Assembly (NCBI GenBank): GCA_030429235.1
Contig: JAUIDB010000021.1
Coordinates: 1-64,000 of the forward strand
Direction of reading: 5' to 3'
Source of the DNA: Thermoanaerobaculia bacterium
GTDB lineage: Bacteria > Acidobacteriota > Thermoanaerobaculia > Multivoradales > JAIOJS01
DNA: 64,000 nt
Part shown: positions 18,796 through 59,875 of the stretch, one piece after another
Numbering within the stretch: position 1 is the stretch's first letter
How the letters are laid out: each line of letters starts with the position of its first letter
Notes under the pieces: generated by a model
The model's database searches: none
Told to the model about the DNA's origin: nothing
The model's input: only the letters and a program-made list of their open reading frames with translations
Translations under genes and position numbers: made by a program

Positions 18796-21369
18796 TCAGC
18801 CGCCGAAGCGGAACTTCACCCGGGCGTACCAGAACGCCCCGTTGAAACCGAAGGGCGAGAACTGACTGTAGCGGTTCCCCACGCCGTCCGCTGCTCCGGG
18901 ATTGTCATCCGGAGTCGTGTCGAAGACGTTGTTGCCACCGACGATCAGCTGCATGCTGTCGGTCAGATCGATGCTACCTTCGAGATCGAGAAGGGTCTTT
19001 CCACTGTAGACGTTACCGTCTTCGGAATCGAACCAACCGTCGTAGTAGCTCGCCCGAGCCATGCCCGAGAGCCGATCGGTGAAGTTGTGGTTGAGCGAGG
19101 CCGTGGCCCGGTTCTCGGGCAGTGCTTCCTGGAGTTCCCGAATTCGCGTTGCGTCGAGGGTGGCCGGGTTGAACTTCGTCACGTCGGTCTCGGTGTGGTT
19201 GAACAACACACTGAAGACCGTATCGACGCTCGGCGTGTAGGTCGCCACGATGTCGATTCCCGAAGTCTCGGTATCGAAATCATTGGTGAAGAATCGGAAG
19301 TTCTGCAGGTTGGCCGCACTGGTGATCCCCTCGGCAATGAGGGAATCGACCTCGTCCTGGGTCAAGCTAAAGAGCTGAGTTACCGCCAGACGATCGGACA
19401 GATCGATCTGGAAGTAGTCGGCCGTCAGAGTGAACGGACCGTTGTCCCAGACCATACCCAGAGCGATGTTCACCGACTCCTCGGCCACCAGTGGCTCACC
19501 ACCTCGCAGCTGCGCTACGCGGGACGACGAGGGAATGGTGCCGTTGTTGACCAACTCCTGCTGCACCAGGTCGAACTCGGTCGAAACGTTGAACGCATTC
19601 GACTGGCCCGGCGTGGGCGCCCGGAAACCGGTGCTCACGCTACCGCGCAGCTGGAAGCTGTCGGTCAGATTGAAGCGACCGGAGACCTTGCCGTTGGTGG
19701 TGGTTCCGAAGTCTTCGAAGTCCTCGAAGCGCAGCGCCAGACCGACGGTCCAACGGCCGTCATCGGCCGACTTCTCGAGGTCGCCGTAGACCGCCCAGTT
19801 CGAGCGACTCCAGGATCCTGCCGCGATGTCGCCGAAGCCGGGGAAGCCGTTCGAAGCCGCACTGAATCCCTGGGTGGCCAGAGGACCAATCTGGTAGGAC
19901 TCGAGCTGACCGATTCCGATCGTGAACTCCTCGTCGCGCCACTCGAGACCACCCGCCAGGTTGAGAGTCGGCGAGATGGCGTAGGAGACATCGAAGTTGA
20001 AGTTCAGCTCGGTCTGGCCGTAGAGACCCGGGTCGAAATCGGTCGGCGTGTTCGGGCCGAGCGAGGCGTTGACCGTGTTGCGGATGAAGAAATCGACCTC
20101 GTTGTCGCCGTAGCTGATGCTGGCGTCCCAATTGAGGCCACCACCCGTGGTACCGCGGAGGCCAGCCGTGATCGCCTGGTCCACCACGTCGCCACCGAAG
20201 CTCGGGGTGAACCCGCCCGGAAACAGCTCTTGGAAGGAGAAGCAGTTCGGATCGGCGAAGACCTGACTCAGCGCCGTCGGATCCGGCACGTTGTTGGTAA
20301 TGGTGACCGTCGGACAGTTGGCCGAGCCATCGTTGACTCCGTCGGCCGCATCGAGCATGTCACCGATCAGAAGCGTGGCCCCACCGTCGCCAGAGAACAC
20401 CGCGCTCCGAGTGTTGGGGTTACGGAAGTAGAACCCACCCGTTACCGTCTTGGTGGCGTAGTTGGCATGGCCGTAGAACTGGCTCGTGTCACCGACCAGA
20501 CTACCGAAGTTGAACCAGAGCTTCATATCGTCCTCGATCTCGGGTGAACCCCAGATCTGAGCCGGGTTGGCGACGTTGGTGTTGCCCGCCGCGATGAGCG
20601 CGGCCGCATCGTTCCGCTGGACCGACCGGCTGGTCGCGTCGGAGAAGCCGTACTCCAAACTGGTGTTGAAGTAGCCGTTCGGACCCATCGGAAGACCGAA
20701 GTTCGCAGCCACGGAGCCCGCGTTGCCATCGCCCTCCTGGTAGCCGCCGTAGCGGAGCTCGACCGATCCACCGCTGGCATCGTCCTTGAGCATGAAATTC
20801 ATGACACCGGCGATCGCATCGGACCCGTACTGCGCCGAGGCACCGTCGCGCAAAACCTCGACCTGCCGCAGGGCGATCGAGGGGATCACCGAGATGTCCG
20901 GACCCTGGGCCCCGTCGGCCACACCATTGCCGAGCCAGTAGATGACGGAGGCCCGGTGGCGGCGCTTGTTGTTGATCAAGACCAACGTGTGGTCTGGGGC
21001 CAAGTTCCGTAGATTAGCCGGCCGCACGACGGTCGCCGCATCGCTGATCGGCTGCGTGTTGACGTTGTAGGAAGGAGCCAGCGTCCGCAGCATGTTGCTG
21101 ACGTCCGTATCTCCCTGGCGCTCGAAGTCAGCCGCCGAGATGACGTCGATCGGTACCATCGACTCGGTCACCGAACGAGGCTCCGAACGACTTCCGGTCA
21201 CCACGATCTCTTCGCCGAAGGGTGTCGTTTCCTCCTCCATCTCTTCGGAGGACGTTTCCTCCTCGTCCATGGCAGCTTCGTCCTGTGCATAGGCTGGAAC
21301 CAGGCCCACCGAAACCAGTAGGGCTACCGCCCCCACCGTCCCCAACGACCAATGTCTCATTCTCTTCAT
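18796..21369 (-). CDS. TonB-dependent outer-membrane receptor
   Basis: An 857-residue outer-membrane receptor. The ATG at 21369 follows AAGGAGT and gives a clean signal peptide (basic KRMRHW, hydrophobic core, cleavage near AYA-QDE). A strongly acidic linker leads to a TonB-box-like EIVVTGSR. The plug domain (VPIDVISAADFERQGDTDVSNML and LRDGASAQYGSDAIAGVMNF) follows, then a 22-strand-type barrel rich in aromatic/glycine alternation, ending FWYARVKFRFGG. The terminal residue is not Phe/Tyr, a small departure from the usual ending. It resembles receptors with TonB-box 'VVTGSR' that import oligosaccharides, siderophores or peptides; the ligand is unknown. It has its own promoter and operator-like palindrome. 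Confidence 0.93.
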   Translation of the reverse strand: MKRMRHWSLGTVGAVALLVSVGLVPAYAQDEAAMDEEETSSEEMEEETTPFGEEIVVTGSRSEPRSVTESMVPIDVISAADFERQGDTDVSNMLRTLAPSYNVNTQPISDAATVVRPANLRNLAPDHTLVLINNKRRHRASVIYWLGNGVADGAQGPDISVIPSIALRQVEVLRDGASAQYGSDAIAGVMNFMLKDDASGGSVELRYGGYQEGDGNAGSVAANFGLPMGPNGYFNTSLEYGFSDATSRSVQRNDAAALIAAGNTNVANPAQIWGSPEIEDDMKLWFNFGSLVGDTSQFYGHANYATKTVTGGFYFRNPNTRSAVFSGDGGATLLIGDMLDAADGVNDGSANCPTVTITNNVPDPTALSQVFADPNCFSFQELFPGGFTPSFGGDVVDQAITAGLRGTTGGGLNWDASISYGDNEVDFFIRNTVNASLGPNTPTDFDPGLYGQTELNFNFDVSYAISPTLNLAGGLEWRDEEFTIGIGQLESYQIGPLATQGFSAASNGFPGFGDIAAGSWSRSNWAVYGDLEKSADDGRWTVGLALRFEDFEDFGTTTNGKVSGRFNLTDSFQLRGSVSTGFRAPTPGQSNAFNVSTEFDLVQQELVNNGTIPSSSRVAQLRGGEPLVAEESVNIALGMVWDNGPFTLTADYFQIDLSDRLAVTQLFSLTQDEVDSLIAEGITSAANLQNFRFFTNDFDTETSGIDIVATYTPSVDTVFSVLFNHTETDVTKFNPATLDATRIRELQEALPENRATASLNHNFTDRLSGMARASYYDGWFDSEDGNVYSGKTLLDLEGSIDLTDSMQLIVGGNNVFDTTPDDNPGAADGVGNRYSQFSPFGFNGAFWYARVKFRFGG

Positions 21370-21481
21370 TCCCGACTCCTTCGATGCGGTTTGCGATCGA
21401 TGCTGCAATGGGTACGGCTAGAGACTCGGTTGCGAAACCGAACTCCAATCGAACCTGCAGACACCACGTTGTGTAGTTGTT

Positions 21482-21568: not shown

Positions 21569-23542
21569 CTACGCCGGATGGGTGCCGACGACCACGGCCG
21601 GCAGTTTCACCGTCGGACGCTGTTCCCAACGGAACGACCGCCCCTCGCTCTGGATGAGATCGACGCTTCCCCATCGGCGGACCAGGCCCTCGAGAACCCG
21701 CACGACCTCCTGGGCCGGCCCTAGACGTTCTTCCGGCGTTGGCTGCATCAGACCGAAGACGAGGTGGTCGAGTTCTCGTGGAATGTCCGCTGCGGCCTGC
21801 GCCAGCGACGGAACTGGCCGGCGCAGCGTGTCGAGCAGCAACGCCCGCACCGAACGACCCCGGAACGGCATCGTCCCGGTGGCGGCTTGATAGAGGATGA
21901 CGCCGAGCGCGAACAGGTCCGCCTCCGGACCGTAACCGAGCCCGCGAATGGCCTCGGGAGCCAGGTAGCCCGGAGTGCCGACCACAAACCCGCGGTTCTG
22001 GTCAGGTCCAGAGAGGGCCTGGGAGACGCCGAAGTCGGCGATCTTGAGTCCTCCGCTTCCCGCCAACAGGACATTGCCTGGTTTGACGTCGTGGTGCACG
22101 ATCCCACGTTCGTGGGCGGCCGAAAGCCCGCGGGCGATTCCCAGTCCGACCTGTACGACGGCCGGCACGGAAAGTGGAGCGAACCGGTCCAGGTACGAAG
22201 CGAGATCGATGCCGTCGACGTACTCCATCGCCAAGAATGCGACCTCGTCGGCCTCCACGACGTCGTGCACGGCCACGATGTTCGGATCGCTGAGCTGAGC
22301 GACGTGGGAGGCCTCGTGCAAGAGCTGCGCGGTGGGAGCCCCCGGCTCGACCTCACCGCGATCCAGCCGAATGGTCTTCAGCGCGACGTCGCGCCGCAAT
22401 ACCGGGTCCCAGCCACGGAACACGCTTCCCATCGAACCCTGGCCTACGAGTTCCATGACCTGGTAGCGTCCCAGAAAGACCTCCCCGAGATCCTGTCGGG
22501 CCTGGATCCGGTCCGCCAGCGCACGAAACGACAGCCGAAGCCGCTCGATCTCACTGCCGCGCGCGTCCGGTGGAATCGCCAGCAGGGAACGCTGGTCTTC
22601 GAGAAGACCCCGAATCGGTCGCACCAAGGTCCGATAGGCGATCGTCGCCGTCAAGAGGAGTAACACCGCGGCCATCGCTACGGCCGCGAGCGACCGCGTC
22701 CTCAACGTCCTGGCGGTAGTTTCCGCCACGGAGGCCGGCTGACGCGACAGCACCGTCCAGTCGGTACCCGCAACCCCAGACCAGGCCCCGACCACCGAGG
22801 CCGAGCCTCGGCCGTAGCACCCAGCGCCAAACACGCGATCGACCGCTGCGAGGGCCAGCATCTCCGGCGGAAACTCCCGAAGGTCGGCAGCTCCCAGCAG
22901 CGCCGTGCCCTCTCGGGACGCCAGAACCAGGGAGGCCTGGTTGCCCAACTCCCGAGGCTCGAGCAGATCGAGCAGGGTCGCCCCCTCGAAGACAGCCCGG
23001 AGTGCCGCCGCTCCTCCCACCGTCACCTGGTAGCTCAGGTAGGGCCCTCGACTCGGTTCCCTCGCCGGCGGTGAGACCCTCCACCCCGCCGTTCCCCTAC
23101 GATCCTCCAGGATCTCGTCGAGCACAGCCCCCGCACCTCGCCTCTGAACCCTCAGCACGGGTCGGCCCTCCCGGTCCTGGACGATCACTCCCAGGATACC
23201 CAGGTCGGACCGCAGCAGCGCGCTGAGGACATCCTGGCCCGAGGGCCCCGTTCCCTGCTCGGAGAGGATCTGGGCCGCTCCTTCGAGCGCTACTCGCCGC
23301 GACTGTAGAAACGACTCCACCCTCCCCCCGACCCCTCGCGCCGCGACGCTGTGGGTCCGGAGCACCTGTTCGGTCATCGCGTCCCGATTGAGGCTGACCA
23401 GACCAGCGGACGAAACGACGAGCGGGAGGACTCCTACCACCACCAGAGCCAATAGGATCCCCGGCAGAAGGCCGATCGGAAGAAGGCGTCGGCGGCACTC
23501 CGCCAGGAGTGATGTCCACGACGGCACCGTCCTCGGGCTCAT
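21569..23542 (-). CDS. Transmembrane sensor Ser/Thr protein kinase (periplasmic sensor-HAMP-kinase)
   Basis: A 657-residue protein starting at the ATG that overlaps the receptor stop by 4 bp. Helix 1 is at about residues 20-45. A roughly 235-residue extracytoplasmic region resembles a Cache-type sensor (GRVESFLQSRRVALEGAA, ILGVIVQDREGRPVLRV). Helix 2 is at about 283-306, then a HAMP-like segment with LVRPI. The cytoplasmic Hanks-type kinase spans about 360-625: Gly loop VGQGSMGSVF, VALKTI lysine, DFG, TPGYLAPEA. The catalytic loop reads HHDVKPGN instead of HRDxKxxN, making it a non-RD kinase. Sensor plus HAMP in front of a Ser/Thr kinase copies histidine-kinase architecture. It probably relays the state of the coupled receptor. 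Confidence 0.9.
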   Translation of the reverse strand: MSPRTVPSWTSLLAECRRRLLPIGLLPGILLALVVVGVLPLVVSSAGLVSLNRDAMTEQVLRTHSVAARGVGGRVESFLQSRRVALEGAAQILSEQGTGPSGQDVLSALLRSDLGILGVIVQDREGRPVLRVQRRGAGAVLDEILEDRRGTAGWRVSPPAREPSRGPYLSYQVTVGGAAALRAVFEGATLLDLLEPRELGNQASLVLASREGTALLGAADLREFPPEMLALAAVDRVFGAGCYGRGSASVVGAWSGVAGTDWTVLSRQPASVAETTARTLRTRSLAAVAMAAVLLLLTATIAYRTLVRPIRGLLEDQRSLLAIPPDARGSEIERLRLSFRALADRIQARQDLGEVFLGRYQVMELVGQGSMGSVFRGWDPVLRRDVALKTIRLDRGEVEPGAPTAQLLHEASHVAQLSDPNIVAVHDVVEADEVAFLAMEYVDGIDLASYLDRFAPLSVPAVVQVGLGIARGLSAAHERGIVHHDVKPGNVLLAGSGGLKIADFGVSQALSGPDQNRGFVVGTPGYLAPEAIRGLGYGPEADLFALGVILYQAATGTMPFRGRSVRALLLDTLRRPVPSLAQAAADIPRELDHLVFGLMQPTPEERLGPAQEVVRVLEGLVRRWGSVDLIQSEGRSFRWEQRPTVKLPAVVVGTHPA

Positions 23543-26500
23543 AGTTTCCAGCTCACACCGAGACTGGGAACGATCCCCGGCCAGAACTCCGAAACCTGGG
23601 TCGCGGCTCTGGCTTCGTCGTCGAAGTCGAAGTCGAAACCAGCCAGGTTTCGGCGGTCGTAGAGGTTCTGTACGTCGAGCCAAAGCTCGAGGCGTCCCGC
23701 ATTCCGGAGTCGGACCTGACGACTGAGCCGAAGATCGAGTCGATGGTAATCATTCAACCGCAGGCTCCTCGGCGAACCGAGAACCGGAGTCCATTCGACC
23801 TCTCCGTCACTCCCGAGTTCGAGCTCGAAGTCGATCGGCGTCGACGGCCAACCCGTGTGATAGCGCCAGGCGAGACTGGCTTGCCACTTCCCCAGAGCGA
23901 AGCCCAGTCCGAGGTTGACGGCGTGGGTCTGATCGATCGCGCGAAGCACCCATTGCCCCTCGAGAAGGTCCTCGCTACGGGACCAGGAGTAGTTTCCCCA
24001 GAGATCGAAGGGACCTGGCAAGTCGGTGCGGAGAAACAGCTCGGCCCCCTTGGCTCGAGCTGAGGTCGGTGCAATCCGCACCCGCTCGGGCTCGAGTTCC
24101 GGGAAGTTGTTGTACGGCTCGAACAGATTCTCGAATCGCGGCCGAGGATCCTCGATGCGACGGTCCCACACTTCGAGTCGTGCCGCCAGCTGACGCCCCG
24201 AACTTCGACTGAGACGCGTGTGCTCGAGGCTCAGGATTCTCTGCTCCGAGCGTTCAGCGGTCGCGAATCGACGCTCACCGTCGGTCACCGCGAGCTCATG
24301 GGGGCGGTGGCTCTGCCGGAAGACTCCCCAAGACGCTCGAACGACGGTCCCCCGCCCCGCCACCCAGGCCAGATTGAGCCGGGGACTGAGAAGGGTCTCG
24401 TCGGTGAGCGAGTGTCGATCGTAGCGTCCACCGACCTCGACCGTGATCGTGCTGCGTGGCCGCCACTGGTCGGTCACGTACCCCGCGAGGTGATGAGCCT
24501 CGAAGTCTCTTCGGTATTCCTCCACCGACTCCGGAGCAAAGGACCGAAGGGCGGCCAACGGTGTCTCGAAATCCAGCACCACCGAACTCTGGTAGTTGGC
24601 CTCGTACTGTCGCAGACTCCAACCCCAGCCGAGGAAGTGATCGGGCCGTGCCTGGGCGCTCCAGTCCTGGCGCAGTTCGGCGATCTCCACCCGACGCTCG
24701 TCCCCCAGAAAGAACCGCTGCTCCTCCTCGTCCTCGAAGGCGAGGCGCGCCTTGTCGATCGTGCTCCAGGAGACCATCGTGTCGACGAACAGTCGGTCCG
24801 TCAGGATGGCCTGGTGGGTTCCCCAGTAGTAGGCAGTCCGATGCTCGGTTCGATGCTCCTTGAACTCCCCGTCGATCTCCTCCTGAAAGTCGAGCCGATC
24901 CTCCGCCAGCAGACCTCGAACGGTGAACGACTGCCGGGGACCGACGGCGTAGGACCCCTTGACCAGGAGATCCCAGAACGCGGGAGCAGGTCCCGACAAG
25001 AACTCGCCGGCCAGTTCGGTCGAACCGGCCCGTCCGACCGCCAACCAGCGGCCCTTCTGATTCGCCGAAACCCCGCGGGTACCGATGCGCGAACTGAGTA
25101 GGCCGAGTCCGAACTCCAACTCGGGCTCGCTGACCGGTTCGGCGCTGTACATCTCGAGTACCGCCGACAAACGATCGCCGAATCGCACCGGGTAGCCACC
25201 CGTGTGGAGGTCGACGGACCCAATCGCACTGGGGGCCAGAAGACTCAGCGCACCATCGAAGTCGCGGAGATGATGTGCCTCGTACAACTCTTGACCGTCG
25301 AACCGAATCTCGACCTGGTCGCGACGTCCTCCTCGGACATGAAACTCCGCACTGATGTCGTTGGCAGTTGCTCCCGGCAACAGTGGCAGAGCCCGGAACA
25401 GGTCATCAGCGAGATGCGGCAGCGTCTCGAGCTCCCGCCGGCTGAGTGCCGCTGGCCGGCTGGCAACCGGCTCACCCAGGGAGACCTGACTGGGGGTGAC
25501 CACGACCTCGGCGTAGGCCGTCGGCAAGCTGTCCAGCCAGACTTCCAAGGCCGTCGACCTTCCGGGCCGAGCCGTGATCCTCTCGAGCCTTCCCGGCAGG
25601 TACCCTTCGACCTCGGCTTCGAGGGTCACGACACCATCTGGCAGCCCCTCGAACCGGAATCCACCCTGATGGTCGGTCCAGACTTCCTGGCCAGTCTCTG
25701 GGATTCTGACCACCGCCCCCGCCAACGGGGCGTTAGCCAGTCGATCCCGGACCGTCCCCACCAAGGTCGCAGTTGCGACCCCCTCGGGGGGACTCGACCG
25801 CGCGGTCAACCAGAGTGAACGGCCCGCTGAGGGATACCCGTCGAGACCACTCGGCGCCACCGCTGTCACTCGCCAGTAGTACCGCCCCTGCGCCAACGGA
25901 GCCAGCGGCAGCACTCCCTGCGTCAGATCGAGAATCCGCAGGGCCAGAGATCCGCAGTCCACGTCGTAGCACACCTCGACGGTGTAGGAGGAGGCCCCCG
26001 AGACCGGGGCCCAGGAGAGCACCGCCCGGTCGAGGGCGACCGTCGTCCCGACCGCCGGTCCGAGGAGGCGAGGTGCGACCAGCAGGGGTTCGGGACTCGG
26101 AATCGGTCCACTCGTGGGCAGTACCAACCCTGAGCCCTCTGGCACTCCCTGCGTTTGCCCGGCCTGGGTCACAAAAGACCGCCCGCGGAACACCATGACC
26201 TGGCCCGCGCCCTGCTCCCGGCGACGGACCCTGGTACGCAGTTCGCCGGCCTGGTTCTCCGCGGCGGCGAGCCGCGTCGCGCCGAGAATGACCTCGATCT
26301 CGCTTTCGTCCTCGCGGGATCGCGACCCCTGCAGATCCACCTGACCGACCACGATCTCCAGATCGGCCGAAGGCGTCGGCTCGGCCGGTGGAGCCTCGGA
26401 TGCCCCGGCCAAGAAGACCAGGCTCTCCTCCCCGATCAGCAGCTGCGACAACCCGTCGAAAACCAACACCGCCGACGAGCGGCGGCCCGTTCGGAAGCCA

Positions 26501-26913
26501 TCCCCCGGCTGCAGCAGATCGAACCTTCGCCCCTTGGTCCAATCGACCGGCGTCGGATAGGCGTGAGCATCACCCGTCAGATTGGTGACCAACGATCCTC
26601 CCTGCGGTAGCCCACGAGTGAGCACGACCCGGATGCGGTCGCCGGCAGCCAAGAGCCGCATTCCAGAGAACGAAGGGTTCAACTCCACCAGCGAATGCCA
26701 GGAACCATCTTCTCCCAAGTACAGCCGACTGAGTTCTTCCAGACTCTGGCCCGGGCGCACGATGTGCCAACCGGCGGTTTCTCGAACGAACGGATCCTCG
26801 GACCGACCGGCCGCCGCTAGCGACAGCAGCAAGAGCACCAACAACGGCACCACGGACCGGCTGCCGCTCGGTCCTCGTTTGAATCTACGAATCCCATCGG
26901 TCGACGCCAGCAT
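23539..26913 (-). CDS. TonB-dependent receptor with N-terminal LysM and FecR-like domains
   Basis: A 1124-residue fusion. The ATG at 26913 has GGGAGGA upstream and yields a signal sequence (VVPLLVLLLLSLAAAG). Then come a LysM-like peptidoglycan-binding domain (about 48-98, WHIVRPGQSLEELS), a FecR-like domain (about 106-265), a fibronectin-III-like module (about 290-375), a carboxypeptidase-regulatory-like domain (about 385-465, TVRDRLANAPLAGAVV), a TonB-box-like AEVVVTP, a plug (about 480-600) and the barrel. FecR-type domains normally belong to anti-sigma regulators that contact receptors such as FecA; here one is part of the receptor. The gene starts 37 bp after an EamA gene and overlaps a kinase gene by 4 bp. 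Ligand unknown. Confidence 0.9.
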   Translation of the reverse strand: MLASTDGIRRFKRGPSGSRSVVPLLVLLLLSLAAAGRSEDPFVRETAGWHIVRPGQSLEELSRLYLGEDGSWHSLVELNPSFSGMRLLAAGDRIRVVLTRGLPQGGSLVTNLTGDAHAYPTPVDWTKGRRFDLLQPGDGFRTGRRSSAVLVFDGLSQLLIGEESLVFLAGASEAPPAEPTPSADLEIVVGQVDLQGSRSREDESEIEVILGATRLAAAENQAGELRTRVRRREQGAGQVMVFRGRSFVTQAGQTQGVPEGSGLVLPTSGPIPSPEPLLVAPRLLGPAVGTTVALDRAVLSWAPVSGASSYTVEVCYDVDCGSLALRILDLTQGVLPLAPLAQGRYYWRVTAVAPSGLDGYPSAGRSLWLTARSSPPEGVATATLVGTVRDRLANAPLAGAVVRIPETGQEVWTDHQGGFRFEGLPDGVVTLEAEVEGYLPGRLERITARPGRSTALEVWLDSLPTAYAEVVVTPSQVSLGEPVASRPAALSRRELETLPHLADDLFRALPLLPGATANDISAEFHVRGGRRDQVEIRFDGQELYEAHHLRDFDGALSLLAPSAIGSVDLHTGGYPVRFGDRLSAVLEMYSAEPVSEPELEFGLGLLSSRIGTRGVSANQKGRWLAVGRAGSTELAGEFLSGPAPAFWDLLVKGSYAVGPRQSFTVRGLLAEDRLDFQEEIDGEFKEHRTEHRTAYYWGTHQAILTDRLFVDTMVSWSTIDKARLAFEDEEEQRFFLGDERRVEIAELRQDWSAQARPDHFLGWGWSLRQYEANYQSSVVLDFETPLAALRSFAPESVEEYRRDFEAHHLAGYVTDQWRPRSTITVEVGGRYDRHSLTDETLLSPRLNLAWVAGRGTVVRASWGVFRQSHRPHELAVTDGERRFATAERSEQRILSLEHTRLSRSSGRQLAARLEVWDRRIEDPRPRFENLFEPYNNFPELEPERVRIAPTSARAKGAELFLRTDLPGPFDLWGNYSWSRSEDLLEGQWVLRAIDQTHAVNLGLGFALGKWQASLAWRYHTGWPSTPIDFELELGSDGEVEWTPVLGSPRSLRLNDYHRLDLRLSRQVRLRNAGRLELWLDVQNLYDRRNLAGFDFDFDDEARAATQVSEFWPGIVPSLGVSWKL

Positions 26914-26950: not shown

Positions 26951-27904
26951 TTAGATGCGCGTCGCGGCGTTTTCCTTCGCGAGACAGGGAGGGACCACTG
27001 CGGCCCGAGTGGCCACACGGCGACTCTGCGTGATCAGACCGACCGCCACCAGCACGATAGCCCCCGCGACCACCGTTCTGCCGGTGATCACTTCGCCCGC
27101 CAGCAGCCAACCGAGCAGCACCGCGATCACCGGATTGACGTAGGCGTAGGTCGAGACCAGCGTCGAGTCGGCGTTGCGCATCAGCCAGGAGTACGCCACG
27201 AATCCCACCAGCGAGCCGAAGAGGATCAGATACGCCAATCCCCAGGCCGAAGTGGCCGACACCACGGCCAAATCGAACCCCGTCAGTTCTCCCCTCACCA
27301 CGGCGGCCACCAACAGCCAGAACCCACCGGAGAGCATGTAGATCGCCGCTCCCATCAGGTCCGAAGCGGGTAAGTCGGCGTGGCGGGCGTACACGGTTCC
27401 GGCCGACCAGGAAGCCGCCGCGAGGAGCAGGAGGGTACCTCCCAGCAGATCCGCGGCACCCTCGCCCCCCACCGTCCCAGGATCGATCAGCAACGCGATC
27501 CCGACAAAGCCGAGCACCAATCCCACCCCGACGACCCAGGAAGGACGCCGACCCTGCGGACGGAGCCAATCGAAGAGAGCGACGAACAGGGGCACGGTCG
27601 CGACCAGAAGCGCGGCCAGTCCCGAAGCAATCCAGGTCTGGGCGATCACCACGCAGCCGTTGCCCCCCAACAGCAGCAGGGCTCCGACCAGGTTGGCGTT
27701 GCGGAACTGACGGAGGGTGGGAAGAGCATCTCCCCGCCACCGACGCCAGGACAGCAACAACCCGCCGGCCACGACGAAGCGCACCCCCGCCATGAGCAGG
27801 GGCGGCATGGTCTCGACCGCGAAGCGGATCGCCAGGTAGGTCGATCCCCAGACGACGTAGACCAGCCCGAGGGCGATCACCAAACGCCATTGGCTGCGCG
27901 CCAT
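26951..27904 (-). CDS. EamA (DMT superfamily) transporter
   Basis: A 317-residue membrane protein with ten hydrophobic segments arranged as two EamA repeats. The first repeat begins VVWGSTYLAIRFAVETMPPLLMAGVRF, here quoted only in part as VVWGSTYLAIRF, and the second begins near WSAGTVYARH. The ending SRRVATRA plus a basic tail is typical. The ATG at 27904 is chosen because it lies 1 bp after the stop of the Lrp-type regulator. Relatives export amino acids and other metabolites (RhtA/YddG-like). An adjacent Lrp/AsnC regulator supports an amino-acid or amino-acid-derivative exporter. The substrate is unknown. Confidence 0.9.
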   Translation of the reverse strand: MARSQWRLVIALGLVYVVWGSTYLAIRFAVETMPPLLMAGVRFVVAGGLLLSWRRWRGDALPTLRQFRNANLVGALLLLGGNGCVVIAQTWIASGLAALLVATVPLFVALFDWLRPQGRRPSWVVGVGLVLGFVGIALLIDPGTVGGEGAADLLGGTLLLLAAASWSAGTVYARHADLPASDLMGAAIYMLSGGFWLLVAAVVRGELTGFDLAVVSATSAWGLAYLILFGSLVGFVAYSWLMRNADSTLVSTYAYVNPVIAVLLGWLLAGEVITGRTVVAGAIVLVAVGLITQSRRVATRAAVVPPCLAKENAATRI

Positions 27905-27905
27905 G

Positions 27906-28379
27906 TCAGTCCTCCTCGCTCGCCTCGGTCGGGAGTCTGCCGCGCTCGACGACCGTGTCCAATACGATGGTGCTTCGGGTCCCCATGACCGAATCGATCT
28001 CTCCCAACTGCTCCCGAAGGAAACGCCCCAGCGCGGCCGGGCTGGCCGCCCGGACCTTGACCAGGAAACAGTCGTCACCGGCGATGTGGTGCACCTCCTG
28101 CACCTCTTCGAACTCGGACAATCGAGTCGCCAGTGTCAGATCGCCCGGACGCTCGTCACCCCGTACCGCCACGAAAGCGAGGAGCCCCATTCCCACCGCG
28201 GCGGGAGCCACCCGCGCCTCGTAGCCGAGCACGATACCGTCCCGCTCCAGGCGTCGGATTCGTTCGCTGACCGCCGACGGCGCCAGACCCACCGTACGAG
28301 CGATCTGCGAGTTGCTGGTTCTGGCGTTGTCCTGCAGGAGGGCCAGAATCTGACGGTCGGTTGCGTCGAGCTGCCTCAT
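27906..28379 (-). CDS. Lrp/AsnC family transcriptional regulator
   Basis: A 157-residue regulator. The ATG at 28379 gives the canonical start QLDATDRQILALLQ. An N-terminal winged helix-turn-helix (NSQIARTVGLAPSAVSERIRRLE) is quoted here as SQIARTVGLAPSAVSERI; it is followed by the RAM ligand-binding domain with VHHIAGDDCFLVKV. The family binds amino acids and controls their transport or metabolism. It is 1 bp from an EamA exporter gene, so it probably controls that exporter and itself. A promoter just upstream contains repeated ACAGTCAA elements. Confidence 0.95.
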   Translation of the reverse strand: MRQLDATDRQILALLQDNARTSNSQIARTVGLAPSAVSERIRRLERDGIVLGYEARVAPAAVGMGLLAFVAVRGDERPGDLTLATRLSEFEEVQEVHHIAGDDCFLVKVRAASPAALGRFLREQLGEIDSVMGTRSTIVLDTVVERGRLPTEASEED

Positions 28380-53355: not shown

Positions 53356-56300
53356 TCAAAGCCTGAAAGGAATACTCAGGTTGAACCAGGTCTTTACCCG
53401 AACCCCTTCGATGGTGGCCGGTTGGAACCTCGCTCCTTCGGCCGCTCGCTGCGCCGCCTCATTGAGGCCGACGTTCTGCCGCACGCCCTGGACGATGCGA
53501 GTCTCCCGGACCGAACCGCTCTCGTCGACCAGTACGGCGACGACGACCGTTCCCTGGACCTTCATCCGTCGGGCCATCGGTGGGTACTCGGGCGTCTTGA
53601 TATTGAGCAGTCGCGGCGCCACCAGCCCCGGAGTCCCCATCTCGACCATCTGCCCCGTCGTGTACTTGGGAGCCTCCGGCTCCGGTTCCGGCTCGGGCTG
53701 GGGTGGAGGCTGTCGCACCGGTTCGGGCTCGGGCTCTGGTTCTGGCGTGGTTTCGGCGACCGCTTCGGAAGCCTCATCTGCCTCGGTCGGCTCCTCGACC
53801 TCCGGGGTCGGTTCCTCGGCCGCGGGCTGCGGGTCGGCAGCTGGTTCGAGCTCGGCATCGCCGGCGGCGGCCGCGGCGGCCTGTTGCTCTGCCTGCTCGG
53901 CGTTGCGGCGAGCCTCTTCGAGTTGTCGTTCGAGTTCCTGGCGCTCTTCGTCCAGGGCGGCATCCCGCTCCCTCACCTGCTCTTCGACGAGATCCTCGAG
54001 CGAAGCTTCCGGCGCCGTTTCAGGTTCCGCGGCGGCGGCTTCGTCTCCCTCGTCCCCTGTGGCCGGCGTCTCCGCATCGGCCTCCCCGTCGCCAGCGGAA
54101 GCATCGACTTCGCCGCCTTCGCTGGCTTCGGAAGTGGGAGTCACCGCCGGGGCAGGTGTCGTTACCGGTGCCTGCACAGGTGGAGTGACCGACTCGCCCC
54201 CCTCGGTCGTTCCTCGATTCATGGCGAACCAGACCACACCGGCAATCACCAGGAGGGCGGCCGCCAGGCCGAGCCACAAGCCAAGCGGCTTGCCGGTCTC
54301 GTCGTCCGCCACGGCTCCCCCCTTGGGCGGTACCGCCGGCACCGCTGCCGCCTTGGAACCGGTGCCCTCGACTGCGGCCGCCACGGGCGAAAGGTCCTGG
54401 GAGTCGTCCTCCGTCGCGAGTTCCCCGTAGACCGCCCGCATGTAGTCGGTGAGCGTCGCTTCGTTCGGGGTGGGCTTGAGCGAGTAGAGGATCGCCTCGA
54501 GTTCCTGCTGCATCTCGCCCGCGGTCTGATAGCGCTCGTCGGGATCCTTCGCCAGTGCCTTCGCCACCACGGCATCGAGTTCGGCCGAAACCTGGCCAGC
54601 GATGTCGCGTACTGCCCGCACGCGGCCTTCCCGAACCGATTCGAGAACGGAGATTTCACTCGCCCCGGAGAACAAGCGCTCGCCGGTGAGCATCTCGAAC
54701 AGCACCGCTCCCAACGAGAAGATGTCGGAGCGAGCGTCAACGACGCGTCCCCACGCCTGCTCGGGGGACATGTACTGGAGTTTCCCCTTGAGGGCGCCCA
54801 TCTGCGTCTTGCTCGCCTTGGCCACCGCCTTGGCGATGCCGAAGTCGCACAACTTGATGTCGCCGTCGAAGCTGACCAGCACGTTTTGGGGTGAAACGTC
54901 GCGGTGCACGAGGCCGAGATCACGATTGTCGAAGTCTCGCTTCCGATGGGCGTGGTCGAGCCCACTCGCCAAGCGAGAGGCAATCAGTACCGCCAGTCCC
55001 AAGGGCAGCGGTTTTCCTGCACTTCGACCATCGTTGAGGATCGAGCGCAAGTCCTTCCCCGCGATGTACTCCATCGCGATGTAGTAGTCCTCTTCGATCT
55101 TGCCGAGGTCGTAGATATGGACGATGTTCGGATGATTGAGCTGGGCGGCCAGTTTGGCCTCGTCGATGAACATGGTCAAGAAGTCCGGGCTATCCGTGAG
55201 ATGCGGCAGGATCCGTTTGATCGCCACGTTCTTCTGGAAGCCTTCGACGCCCTGCATCCGCGCCTTCCAGACCTCGGCCATGCCACCGACTGCAACCCGG
55301 TCGAGCAGGGTGTACTGGCCGAACTGCTGCCGTTCGGTCTGATCCTCCGCCTCGTCGGCGTCGGCGGCGACGTCGGGCTTGGCTGCCGGTTCCTTCCTCT
55401 CGGCCTCCTCGACCACGGCCTTCAGGGCCTCGCGGTCCAGCTTCTCGGTCGCGTCGAGTGAGGCGTCGGCGGCAGCAGACTTGGGCTTCGCGACCATGGT
55501 GGGAATATCCACCGCGGGCAGTTCCGGGGGTTTTTCCGGCAACTCGACGATCGGCATCCGCATGGTGCTGTAGACGTCGGCCTCGGACGGCACATCGCTC
55601 TTGGCGGCGGCGGGCGGCACCACCGGCTGGGGGGGCGGAGCGGGTTTCTTGGCCTTGGGCCGAGACGATCGACGCGGGGTCAGTCCGTCGACCAACGCAT
55701 CGACATCGGCGACCGAAGGTCGTGGCTTGCGCCGGGGGCGGGAAGCTAACTTCGGCGGTTCGACGACCGGTTCGGGCACAACCTCGATCTCGGGTTCCTG
55801 GGCCTTCGGCGGCGAAGCGGGCGACTTCGAAGGGGTTCGTACGACGCCGGAGAGCGTCTTGCTGATCAACGCGTCGACATCGCCACCCGCGGCGGGACGG
55901 CGCGGCTTCCGCCGCGGCTTCGGCGTGTCGAGCACGCCGGACAGAGTCTGTTCGAGTTTTCGATCGAGGTCCGAAGAGCCGCTCGACGCGGCAGGTCGGG
56001 GAGCTGCTGGAGCCGGAGGAGCCGGGGACGGGCTAGGGGGAGCCGGCTGACTGGGTTGGACTTCTCGCGCTGGGCCGGCGGCCTCGACCTCCTCCTCGAC
56101 CTCGGCGAGCATGTCTCCGAAGATGTCCTGGGACGTGAACTGGCCACCTTCCGAAGCGGCCTCAGCGGCCGCCTTCTCGACCGCCGCCCGAGACAGCCCC
56201 GACAGAATCCGCCGCACTCCGACTCTGATCTCCTCGTCGGATCCCGATGGATCGACCTGACCATCCGAACCGGCCACCTGCGCGCCGAGCACGACCACAC

Positions 56301-56514
56301 CTGGCCCTCCCGCGGCGCTCGAGAAACGACGCACCGCCGTAGCGTCTTCGCTACCCTCGGCCACGACAACCAGATCAGGAGAAGATTGGTCGGCCAGGAT
56401 TGCAGCCTCGTTGACCCCGCGACGGGTCTCGACGATCCACCCTTCCGCCTCGAGTGCGCTCGCCACGCGGCGGGCCCGCTCCTCCCTGCTATCGATGAGA
56501 ATGATCAAAGACAT
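53356..56514 (-). CDS. Ser/Thr protein kinase fused to a TonB C-terminal domain
   Basis: A 1052-residue inner-membrane protein. The ATG at 56514 follows AAGGGA. Residues 1-115 resemble a receiver (SLIILIDSREERARRVAS) but the phosphoacceptor site reads DLVVVAEG, so it is a pseudo-receiver. A Pro/Ala/Lys-rich linker carries repeated LSGV-TP motifs. An apparently active Hanks kinase spans about 405-680: VAVGGMAEVWKA, VAIKRI, HRDVSPQN (H about 537), CDFGIAKA, YMSPEQ. One helix is at about 743-764. A periplasmic Glu/Pro-rich, partly coiled-coil linker (about 765-945) leads to a TonB C-terminal domain (about 960-1052: TPEYPPMARRMKVQGTVVV, ending NLSIPFRL). TonB domains bind receptor TonB boxes. The pairing with a kinase suggests signalling or gated energy transfer. 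No ExbB-contacting SHLS-type helix was identified. Confidence 0.93.
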   Translation of the reverse strand: MSLIILIDSREERARRVASALEAEGWIVETRRGVNEAAILADQSSPDLVVVAEGSEDATAVRRFSSAAGGPGVVVLGAQVAGSDGQVDPSGSDEEIRVGVRRILSGLSRAAVEKAAAEAASEGGQFTSQDIFGDMLAEVEEEVEAAGPAREVQPSQPAPPSPSPAPPAPAAPRPAASSGSSDLDRKLEQTLSGVLDTPKPRRKPRRPAAGGDVDALISKTLSGVVRTPSKSPASPPKAQEPEIEVVPEPVVEPPKLASRPRRKPRPSVADVDALVDGLTPRRSSRPKAKKPAPPPQPVVPPAAAKSDVPSEADVYSTMRMPIVELPEKPPELPAVDIPTMVAKPKSAAADASLDATEKLDREALKAVVEEAERKEPAAKPDVAADADEAEDQTERQQFGQYTLLDRVAVGGMAEVWKARMQGVEGFQKNVAIKRILPHLTDSPDFLTMFIDEAKLAAQLNHPNIVHIYDLGKIEEDYYIAMEYIAGKDLRSILNDGRSAGKPLPLGLAVLIASRLASGLDHAHRKRDFDNRDLGLVHRDVSPQNVLVSFDGDIKLCDFGIAKAVAKASKTQMGALKGKLQYMSPEQAWGRVVDARSDIFSLGAVLFEMLTGERLFSGASEISVLESVREGRVRAVRDIAGQVSAELDAVVAKALAKDPDERYQTAGEMQQELEAILYSLKPTPNEATLTDYMRAVYGELATEDDSQDLSPVAAAVEGTGSKAAAVPAVPPKGGAVADDETGKPLGLWLGLAAALLVIAGVVWFAMNRGTTEGGESVTPPVQAPVTTPAPAVTPTSEASEGGEVDASAGDGEADAETPATGDEGDEAAAAEPETAPEASLEDLVEEQVRERDAALDEERQELERQLEEARRNAEQAEQQAAAAAAGDAELEPAADPQPAAEEPTPEVEEPTEADEASEAVAETTPEPEPEPEPVRQPPPQPEPEPEPEAPKYTTGQMVEMGTPGLVAPRLLNIKTPEYPPMARRMKVQGTVVVAVLVDESGSVRETRIVQGVRQNVGLNEAAQRAAEGARFQPATIEGVRVKTWFNLSIPFRL

Positions 56515-56594
56515 CGGATTCCCTTGCGACGGCACCGGTGGGGAGTCCCGGAATGTCCCCTAAGGTCTATTGAATAAAGCGCATTCACGATTCG

Positions 56595-57496: not shown

Positions 57497-58189
57497 GTGG
57501 AAAACCTTAGCGGAAACGTAATGAAGCTCATGAACCAGGGCGGCTGGGTCATGTGGGTCCTGCTTCTCTTCTCGATCGTTGCCCTGGCGGTAATCTTCGA
57601 GCGCTGGTGGGTTCTCCACAAGGCCCGCATCAATGTCAACGAGTTCCTCGCCAAGATCCGCAAGGCTCTGATCGTCAACCGGTCGATCCGCGACGCCGTC
57701 AAGATCTGTGAGCAGTACCAGGGCCCCGTCGCTTCCGTAATGAAGGCCGGCCTTCTCAAGTACGGTCAGCCGAAAGAGGACGTCGAGAAGACGATCGAGA
57801 ACGCAGCGCTCTACGAACTCGGACGCCTCGAACAACGTCTGGTCATCCTGGCCACCACCGCCAACGTCGCTCCTCTCCTCGGATTCTTCGGAACCGTAAC
57901 CGGAATGATGAAGTCGTTCGACGCCCTCGCCGCGGCCGGTCTCTCCAACCCTGGCCTCGTCGCGATCGGTATCAAGGAAGCCCTGACCACCACCGCGGCG
58001 GGTCTCTTCGTCGCAATCCCGGTCCAGATCGCCTACAACTTCTTCATGAGCAAGGTCAACAAGTTCGTCCGCGACATCGAGACCTCGGCCAACATGCTCC
58101 TGGAGACCTTCGGCGAAATGGATCGTAGCGGCGTCAGCGCCGACCGAGGCGGTGCTTCCGCTCCGGCCTCCTCTGGAAACGCTTCCTGA
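57497..58189 (+). CDS. exbB: ExbB/TolQ family proton channel subunit
   Basis: A 230-residue MotA/TolQ/ExbB protein from GTG behind GAGGAGG. It has three helices: one at 15-35 and two closer together in the C-terminal half. The family core GRLEQRLVILATTANVAPLLGFFGTVTGMM and KEALTTTAAGLFVAIPVQIAYN are present in part as APLLGFFGTVTGMM and EALTTTAAGLFVAIP. Family members form pentamers that, with an ExbD dimer, convert proton-motive force into work on TonB. It is first in a six-gene operon. The tail is Ser/Ala/Gly-rich. Confidence 0.94.
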   Translation: MENLSGNVMKLMNQGGWVMWVLLLFSIVALAVIFERWWVLHKARINVNEFLAKIRKALIVNRSIRDAVKICEQYQGPVASVMKAGLLKYGQPKEDVEKTIENAALYELGRLEQRLVILATTANVAPLLGFFGTVTGMMKSFDALAAAGLSNPGLVAIGIKEALTTTAAGLFVAIPVQIAYNFFMSKVNKFVRDIETSANMLLETFGEMDRSGVSADRGGASAPASSGNAS

Positions 58190-58211
58190 GCCAGTCGAGG
58201 GTCCATCCCCG

Positions 58212-58643
58212 ATGAAGCTGCAGAAATCACAGCAATTCACGCCGATGATTCCTACCGCCTCGATGGCGGACATCGCGTTCTTGCTCATCATCTTCTTCAT
58301 GGTGACGATCACCTTCGAGGTCGACAAGACCCAGGTGCTCCTACCGAAGACGGTGATCCGGCTCGAGGTGCCGAAGAAGGCTGCCTACGTATCGGTAACC
58401 GAGCAAGGACTGATCAAGGTATCGGACGGTGAAGAGCTCTCGAACCAGGTCAACGGGGTAGAGGACGTGCTGTCCTTCGCTTCGACCGTGGTCGCCTCGA
58501 ATCCGAGCAAGCCGTTTGTACTGAAGGCGGACTCGAACGTGGCCTACGACCATATCGACAAGGTTCTCGATGCTCTGAAACAGGCCAAGGTCGAGGTCAT
58601 CTACCTGCTATCCGAGCAGCAGACGGTCCCCGTCGACGGATAG
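58212..58643 (+). CDS. exbD: ExbD/TolR family protein 1
   Basis: A 143-residue protein. The ATG at 58212 is used; longer upstream frames run into exbB. One N-terminal helix (MADIAFLLIIFFMVTITF) contains the essential proton-carrying Asp (MADIAF). The periplasmic part is the compact TolR/ExbD domain with LKADSNVAYDHIDKVLDALKQA. It is the first of two ExbD copies following exbB, 22 bp after its stop. The motor probably uses a heterodimer of the two. Confidence 0.93.
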   Translation: MKLQKSQQFTPMIPTASMADIAFLLIIFFMVTITFEVDKTQVLLPKTVIRLEVPKKAAYVSVTEQGLIKVSDGEELSNQVNGVEDVLSFASTVVASNPSKPFVLKADSNVAYDHIDKVLDALKQAKVEVIYLLSEQQTVPVDG

Positions 58644-58654
58644 GGAGGACACTG

Positions 58655-59095
58655 ATGAAGATCAACCGCGACAACAAGATCAGCGACGAGATTCCCGCCT
58701 CATCGATGGCGGACATCGCCTTTCTGCTGATCATCTACTTCATGGTCACCACCACCTTCACCGCCACTCGCGGACTGGATTTCGGTCTTCCCAAGGAAGA
58801 TGACAATCCACCCGAGATCGAGAAGGAGGATTCGGTGCACATCCAAGTGCAGCCTGGTGGCAACATCGTCGTCGACAGCAAGCCGATGCCACTCGACAAC
58901 CTCTTGACCCATTTGGAAGGGATCCTCAAGGACAACCCGACCAAGCCGGTGATCATCCAGACTGACCCGCAGGCCTCCTACGTGCACATGGTGACGGTGC
59001 TCGACGAACTGCGGCAGAGCGAGGACAAGATCGGCATGGAGGTCAAGAACATCTCGATCCCGACTCGTCGGGAAATCGAGAGTTTCTGGTACTAA
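58655..59095 (+). CDS. exbD: ExbD/TolR family protein 2
   Basis: A 146-residue paralogue of the preceding gene. It has the same helix with its Asp (SMADIAFLLIIYFMVTTTF) and the periplasmic IQTDPQASYVHMVTVLDELRQ domain. It begins 11 bp after the first exbD, behind GGGAGG. An ExbB-ExbD-ExbD-TonB order, with two ExbD copies, is common in Acidobacteria, Bacteroidetes and Myxococcota. The C-terminus ends REIESFWY. Confidence 0.93.
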   Translation: MKINRDNKISDEIPASSMADIAFLLIIYFMVTTTFTATRGLDFGLPKEDDNPPEIEKEDSVHIQVQPGGNIVVDSKPMPLDNLLTHLEGILKDNPTKPVIIQTDPQASYVHMVTVLDELRQSEDKIGMEVKNISIPTRREIESFWY

Positions 59096-59119
59096 GTGGC
59101 GGACGACGGAAAGGGAACC

Positions 59120-59875
59120 ATGGCAGACTCCAAACAGCCCCCCAAGAAGCAGCCCGCAGCGAAGAAGCCGGCGCAGGCGTCTTCGGCCAAGATGAGCGAA
59201 GCCGATCTGGCCGTAGCCGATCTGCAGATGTTCGCCCGCGAGTACGAAGACGACAATCGCCTCCTCAAACGAGCTTTGATCGTTGCTGCCGTCTTCCATC
59301 TGATCGTGGGCGTCATCAACTTCCCGACCCTCAACTCCAACGTGAACGCCGAGGAGAAGAAGGCGAAGGTCTACGTCGTGCAGCAGGTGCGCTTCAAGCC
59401 GCCGCCACCGAAGCAGGAACAGCAGATCCCCGAGCGCAAGAAGAAGAAGGTTCCGATTCCGGACCCGACTCCCGATGAGCCCGAGCCGATCCGCATGCCC
59501 GAAGAAGAGCAACCGGAGATCGATCTCCCAGATACCGATCTGGTCTTCGACATCCCCGAGGGTCCTCCTCCGGCCGAACCCGAGGGACCGATCCTGGTCG
59601 CCGGTGACGTGGTCGCCCCCGAAAAGATCTCGGCTCCACAGCCGGTCTACACGGAGATGGCCCGCAAGGCCCGTATCCAGGGCGTCGTGATCGTCCAGGC
59701 GATCATCGACAAGTCGGGTGATGTCACCAACGTCAAGGTACTCAAGGGCTTGCCCATGGGGCTCGACGTGGCCGCGGCCGACGCGGTGAAAAAGTGGAAG
59801 TTCAAGCCGGCAACCCTCAACGGCAAGCCGGTGGACGTGTACTACAATCTGACGGTGAACTTCCGCATCCAATAA
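59120..59875 (+). CDS. tonB: TonB energy transducer
   Basis: A 251-residue protein. The ATG at 59120 is preferred because GGAAAGGGA precedes it; a GTG at 59096 adds eight residues. A cytoplasmic Lys-rich N-terminus (AAKKPAQASSAK) of about 60 residues precedes one helix (ALIVAAVFHLIVGVINF). A periplasmic Pro/Glu/Lys linker (KKKKVPIPDPTPDEPEPI) and a TonB C-terminal domain follow: PVYTEMARKARIQGVVIVQAIIDKSG (quoted in part) and WKFKPATLNGKPVDV. It couples the ExbB/D motor to outer-membrane receptors such as those at 18.8-26.9 kb. The cytoplasmic part is longer than in E. coli TonB. Confidence 0.94.
   Translation: MADSKQPPKKQPAAKKPAQASSAKMSEADLAVADLQMFAREYEDDNRLLKRALIVAAVFHLIVGVINFPTLNSNVNAEEKKAKVYVVQQVRFKPPPPKQEQQIPERKKKKVPIPDPTPDEPEPIRMPEEEQPEIDLPDTDLVFDIPEGPPPAEPEGPILVAGDVVAPEKISAPQPVYTEMARKARIQGVVIVQAIIDKSGDVTNVKVLKGLPMGLDVAAADAVKKWKFKPATLNGKPVDVYYNLTVNFRIQ

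Follow-up and report, generated by a model that had tools for sequence, protein, structure and literature searches.

A TonB-dependent receptor carrying a LysM-FecR-like module beside a dCache Ser/Thr kinase in Thermoanaerobaculia: a putative trans-envelope signalling unit

Gene organization and domain architecture of the receptor

The window (the whole stretch of 64,000 nt that was analysed) contains, on the reverse strand, a gene at 23539-26913 encoding a fused receptor of 1124 residues, in which a signal peptide is followed by LysM, FecR-like, Fn3-like and CarboxypepD_reg domains, a TonB box, a plug and a barrel. Its ATG lies at 26913, with a GGAGG Shine-Dalgarno sequence 5' of it, and its stop codon ends at 23539. 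The next gene on the same strand (21569-23542) encodes a sensor Ser/Thr kinase of 657 residues that begins with an ATG at 23542, so that the overlap described in the initial annotation is borne out as a 4-nt ATGA. A second TonB-dependent receptor, recognized by Pfam, is encoded at 18796-21408, also on the reverse strand. An EamA-type transporter gene (26951-28078, reverse strand) ends with a stop codon 37 nt ahead of the start of the receptor gene, with which it is possibly co-transcribed. Rfam searches gave no matches in the 64,000-nt window, and a promoter and terminator scan remained near chance.

Within the receptor, inspection of the sequence indicates a Sec-type signal peptide without a lipobox at about residues 1-38 (26800-26913) and a TonB-box-like stretch, EVVVTPSQ, at about residues 466-474 (25492-25518), lying between the periplasmic module and the plug as the TonB box likewise does in known transducers (PMC11637429). 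The plug and the TonB-dependent receptor barrel span 23542-25491. Pfam recognizes the barrel (3.3e-17) and the CarboxypepD_reg domain at residues 383-458 (25540-25767; 1.1e-13), while the plug (0.0011) and the LysM at residues 50-96 (26626-26766; 0.22) are found below the cut-off. The barrel and plug thus agree with those of a FecA-type transducer, and the genome encodes TonB proteins. Neither FecR nor STN was matched in the window receptor on its own at E<=1 (Pfam). The FecR-like, beta-rich domain (about residues 131-260; 26134-26523) was recognized from the family profile, the orthologue in the second genome of the genus (the congener, the MAG G001) and Foldseek, and the Fn3-like domain (about residues 281-370; 25804-26073) from the predicted structure and Foldseek matches to Fn3.

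The proposal that LysM and FecR-like domains are built into the periplasmic N-terminus of the receptor withstands, through its homologues, the profile search suggested as a refuting check: at E<=0.05, LysM is found in 33 of the 35 aligned family members and FecR in 32, with a sub-threshold LysM and no FecR match in the window protein itself. The family profile also matches solved LysM proteins, the best of which is TsaP (4e-12). A paralogue in the window genome (contig C42), 622 residues long, lacking a barrel and 41% identical over receptor residues 23-439, scores above the Pfam cut-off for FecR and at 0.0027 for LysM, and the fused orthologue of the congener gives 5.5e-4 for FecR and 0.0096 for LysM. 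The structural model of the N-terminal module (pLDDT 88.6) begins with a LysM-like fold, continues with a beta-rich region and closes with an Fn3-like domain; Fn3 repeats dominate its Foldseek matches, which also include the putative anti-sigma factor 4m0h (TM-score by target 0.48, rmsd 4.5 Å). Based on the family profiles, the congener's orthologue and the module model with its match to 4m0h, the LysM and FecR-like domains of the receptor are genuine.

We use LF for a secreted LysM-FecR-Fn3 protein and K for a kinase with the same dCache sensor as the window kinase. An hhalign comparison of LF with anti-sigma FecR proteins yielded a weak match (probability 11%, E 0.0027) whose alignment falls in the region where it would be expected. 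As judged from the family profiles and the signal peptide, LF resembles COG4254 in being secreted with LysM followed by FecR.

The sensor Ser/Thr kinase

The kinase comprises a transmembrane helix, a periplasmic domain, a second transmembrane helix, a helical linker and a C-terminal kinase domain. Its periplasmic domain, at about residues 49-280 (22703-23398), matches dCache_1 at 1.4e-4, below the Pfam cut-off, and in the AlphaFold model (pLDDT 87.9) it forms a double PAS-like extracytoplasmic domain between the two transmembrane helices, for which Foldseek retrieves many double-Cache ligand-binding domains of chemoreceptors and kinases. Such dCache domains usually bind small ligands directly. 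The kinase domain (21692-22474; Pkinase 2.4e-48) is of the Hanks type, with a Gly-rich loop (GQGSMGSVF), VALK, the catalytic Asp in HHDVKPGN, and DFG; the Arg of HRD is replaced by His, and the same HHD is seen in the congener's kinase and in some relatives. Of the sensor-HAMP-kinase arrangement first assigned to this protein, the periplasmic sensor and the Ser/Thr kinase domain therefore stand, whereas HAMP has no Pfam match and corresponds in the model merely to a helical linker. PknB-type kinases are likewise membrane Ser/Thr kinases with an extracytoplasmic sensor, but here the sensor is dCache and not PASTA, the kinase domain is C-terminal and HHD takes the place of HRD; against the NCBIfam model PknB_PASTA_kin the kinase domain scores 3.7e-70, below the cut-off of that model.

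Association of LF and K across Thermoanaerobaculia

LF is normally a separate secreted protein of ~600 residues (mostly about 400-1000) with a plain signal peptide. A survey of 59 genomes of the order yielded both LF and K in 34, LF without K in 2, K without LF in 3 and neither in 20, 14 of which belong to one genus; the Fisher p value for this co-occurrence, 1e-10, is overstated since the genomes are related. Of 44 LF matches, 32 share a contig with a K at most 2.6 kb away, and all four orientations (LF-K, K-LF, divergent and convergent) are seen; the other 12 lie on contigs without K, some of which are long. The adjacency recurs in 8 more loci belonging to other families (L242, L243, L245-L248, L250 and L251). 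Pairwise distances of LF and of the K sensor are correlated (r=0.64, p=2e-4, 33 pairs), corresponding subgroups appear in both trees, and in the two genomes of the genus the fused pair and the unfused pair each group as a matched set. Judged from these comparisons, LF and K appear to function together as a co-evolving pair, for which the main evidence is the gene-pair pattern rather than the fusion. The co-inheritance by which the initial annotation proposed to judge the gene pair is accordingly kept class-wide at the level of LF and K, in all orientations and with congruent distances, and its link between a FecR/LysM module and a sensor kinase is upheld by the same adjacency and correlation.

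The C-termini of LF proteins vary, being Ig-like, CarboxypepD with a right-handed beta-helix (L170, L180) or a TonB receptor; LysM-FecR proteins with long C-termini are paired with the same kinase type in L170, L180, L243 and L251. FHA-EAL proteins adjoin four LF-K pairs (L009:7181-8281, L141:4368-5741, L142:4023-5186 and L146:3850-5019) and are possibly phosphothreonine-controlled c-di-GMP phosphodiesterases, and five are adjoined by members of another protein family, represented in L117 by a sigma-54 activator. Because of these two kinds of neighbour, the surroundings of LF-K pairs suggest phosphothreonine-dependent and transcriptional outputs. A FecR-Fn3 relative that lacks LysM was observed near mreB-like genes across Acidobacteriota (L238 on contig C70 of the window genome G000, L239 and L240).

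Origin of the fused receptor

In samples of 148 genomes of the class and 396 of the phylum, the only genomes with the receptor fusion were the window genome and G001, both from one genus of uncultured Acidobacteriota. To speak of a 'new class' of outer-membrane-to-cytoplasm signalling, as was first suggested, is too strong, because only two genomes, both from this genus, are known to carry the fused form; moreover, the combination of LysM and FecR is that of an old family, COG4254. The congener keeps the order of fused receptor, kinase and second receptor (55%, 47% and 79% identity), followed by a convergent MsrA gene, with a gap of about 145 nt between the first two ORFs in place of the ATGA overlap. 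The second receptor of the window corresponds to L109:1075-3711 (79% identical, same position), and since the cluster order is conserved in the congener it is a candidate partner or output of the receptor and kinase.

Unfused LF and K are present in both genomes of the genus (L009, on C42, in the window genome; L110 and L111, on separate short contigs, in the congener), as are loci with a receptor, a sigma factor and FecR (L011, L198). Both source systems are thus present unfused in the window genome: LF-K on C42 and, on C40, an STN-like receptor accompanied by ECF sigma and FecR. Since both genomes keep both systems, the fusion joins one part from each of two persisting systems, with the CarboxypepD_reg domain as the probable seam between the LF and receptor parts. 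In the tree, the LF module of the fused receptor sits on a long branch, as expected after a change of role.

Among the relatives of the barrel, a FecR anti-sigma gene stands beside 17 of 22 loci, with an ECF sigma gene also detected in 13, and the five relatives without a FecR neighbour form one clade. An STN profile match was obtained in 8 of 16 N-termini of these relatives (Pfam); searched by sequence against the PDB, their STN region gave no match. On the window contig there is no separate FecR gene, nor is there an ECF sigma or FecR gene among the receptor's neighbours. The fused barrel likely descends from a sigma-linked ancestor. From these sequence comparisons we infer, rather than regard as established, that the fused receptor lost its sigma/FecR output, since an AU test leaves the barrel's branching outside all sigma-associated receptors possible (p=0.177). 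The initial picture of FecA/FecR/FecI parts joined in one receptor does not hold, as the module is a kinase-linked adaptor that mostly occurs as a free protein and the STN of related receptors is absent.

A putative trans-envelope signalling unit

We propose, with a probability of a little under 0.6, that a domain swap in an LF-K pair has produced a trans-envelope signalling unit running from the receptor through LF to the Ser/Thr kinase. In Thermoanaerobaculia, a secreted LF with a variable C-terminal module would be the periplasmic input partner of an inner-membrane dCache kinase. One LF would have been joined, at or near CarboxypepD_reg, to a TonB receptor of an STN-like group associated with FecR and ECF sigma factors, so that the barrel takes the place of the usual variable C-terminus as input. 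The LF module would then relay the binding of a ligand, or TonB-driven transport, at the barrel; LysM may keep this module near the peptidoglycan, between the membranes, and the module may pass its state to the dCache sensor of K by physical contact. K would in turn alter the phosphorylation of cytoplasmic targets, with the neighbouring TonB receptor as a possible output. The direction of the signal, the ligand and the targets in this scheme are conjectural, and several observations speak against it: dCache domains usually bind small ligands directly, LysM scores low in the window protein, the congener lacks the ATGA overlap, and 12 of the 44 LF matches lack a K on their contig.

It is conceivable, though considerably less probable, that the role of LF is confined to tethering the receptor to peptidoglycan or to placing it for transport, and that the kinase senses its own small ligand, coupling being a matter of co-expression only. 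The double-Cache fold of the sensor, a small-ligand fold by Foldseek, and the profile matches of LysM to wall-binding modules would suit such an arrangement; however, LF adjoins K in any orientation even where there is no receptor, the LF and K distances correlate, and mere co-expression would not favour convergent genes. Alternatively, the signal may originate in the envelope, LF reporting the state of the peptidoglycan or periplasm to the kinase, with the receptor as a regulated client or a new outer-membrane anchor. We consider this improbable: it would leave unexplained why the usual C-terminal module gave way to a transducer-type barrel, even though LysM, the free receptor-less LF proteins and the second receptor as the next gene all speak for this reading. 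A sigma-factor regulon as the output of the receptor is very improbable, for despite the sigma/FecR association of the barrel's relatives and the system kept on C40, STN is unmatched in the receptor, no sigma or FecR gene lies in its vicinity, a separate receptor belongs to the C40 system, and in the trees the fused LF goes with its kinase.

Returning to the relay from receptor through LF to kinase, we know of no well-characterised TonB-receptor signalling system that ends otherwise than in a sigma factor. Whether a TonB transducer was here rewired from a sigma output to a kinase output, its STN replaced by a modular LysM-FecR adaptor that plugs sensing modules into class-wide dCache kinases, appears to us evenly balanced.

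Comparison with known systems

In the FecA/FecR/FecI and FoxA/FoxR transducers (PMC11637429), too, the TonB box of the TonB receptor is preceded by a periplasmic module at the N-terminus. Compared with the FecA type, no STN was detected in the window receptor and no sigma or anti-sigma gene lies nearby; the receptor itself contains the FecR-like and LysM domains, and its partner gene encodes a Ser/Thr kinase. In characterised cell-surface signalling, it is an STN-like domain of the anti-sigma factor, rather than the FecR beta-solenoid, that the STN of the transducer contacts (PMC11637429), so that contact in the present pair might be made by a surface other than the FecR domain. In the BiofilmReg operon of Burkholderia, a LysM-FecR protein (COG4254) lies beside a CHASE2 histidine kinase (PMC5192318). 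There, as in the LF-K pairs, a secreted LysM-FecR protein adjoins a membrane kinase with an extracytoplasmic sensor; the kinase type differs, being a dCache Ser/Thr kinase here, and the LysM-FecR part of the window protein is joined to an outer-membrane receptor. In the open literature, which leaves most subscription journals outside, we found no TonB receptor fused to LysM/FecR or with a Ser/Thr kinase output; nor, within the same limits, a LysM-FecR protein beside a Ser/Thr kinase.

If the proposed relay is right, one gene fusion rewired a TonB receptor to a protein kinase in a lineage, and orphan LysM-FecR proteins beside sensor kinases would be interchangeable input adaptors. The presence of free and fused versions in one genome makes the adaptor idea testable by domain exchange.

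Other kinases in the window genome

About 60 Ser/Thr kinase matches were noted in the 4.8 Mb window genome (G000). One gene of the window, at 53356-56535 on the reverse strand, encodes 1059 residues with a Ser/Thr kinase domain, a transmembrane helix and a C-terminal TonB domain, the TonB_C (5.7e-17) and kinase matches being in the same frame; an ExbB/TonB-like locus (57497-59875) lies nearby. A frame of 667 residues on contig C21 may be another such kinase-TonB fusion.
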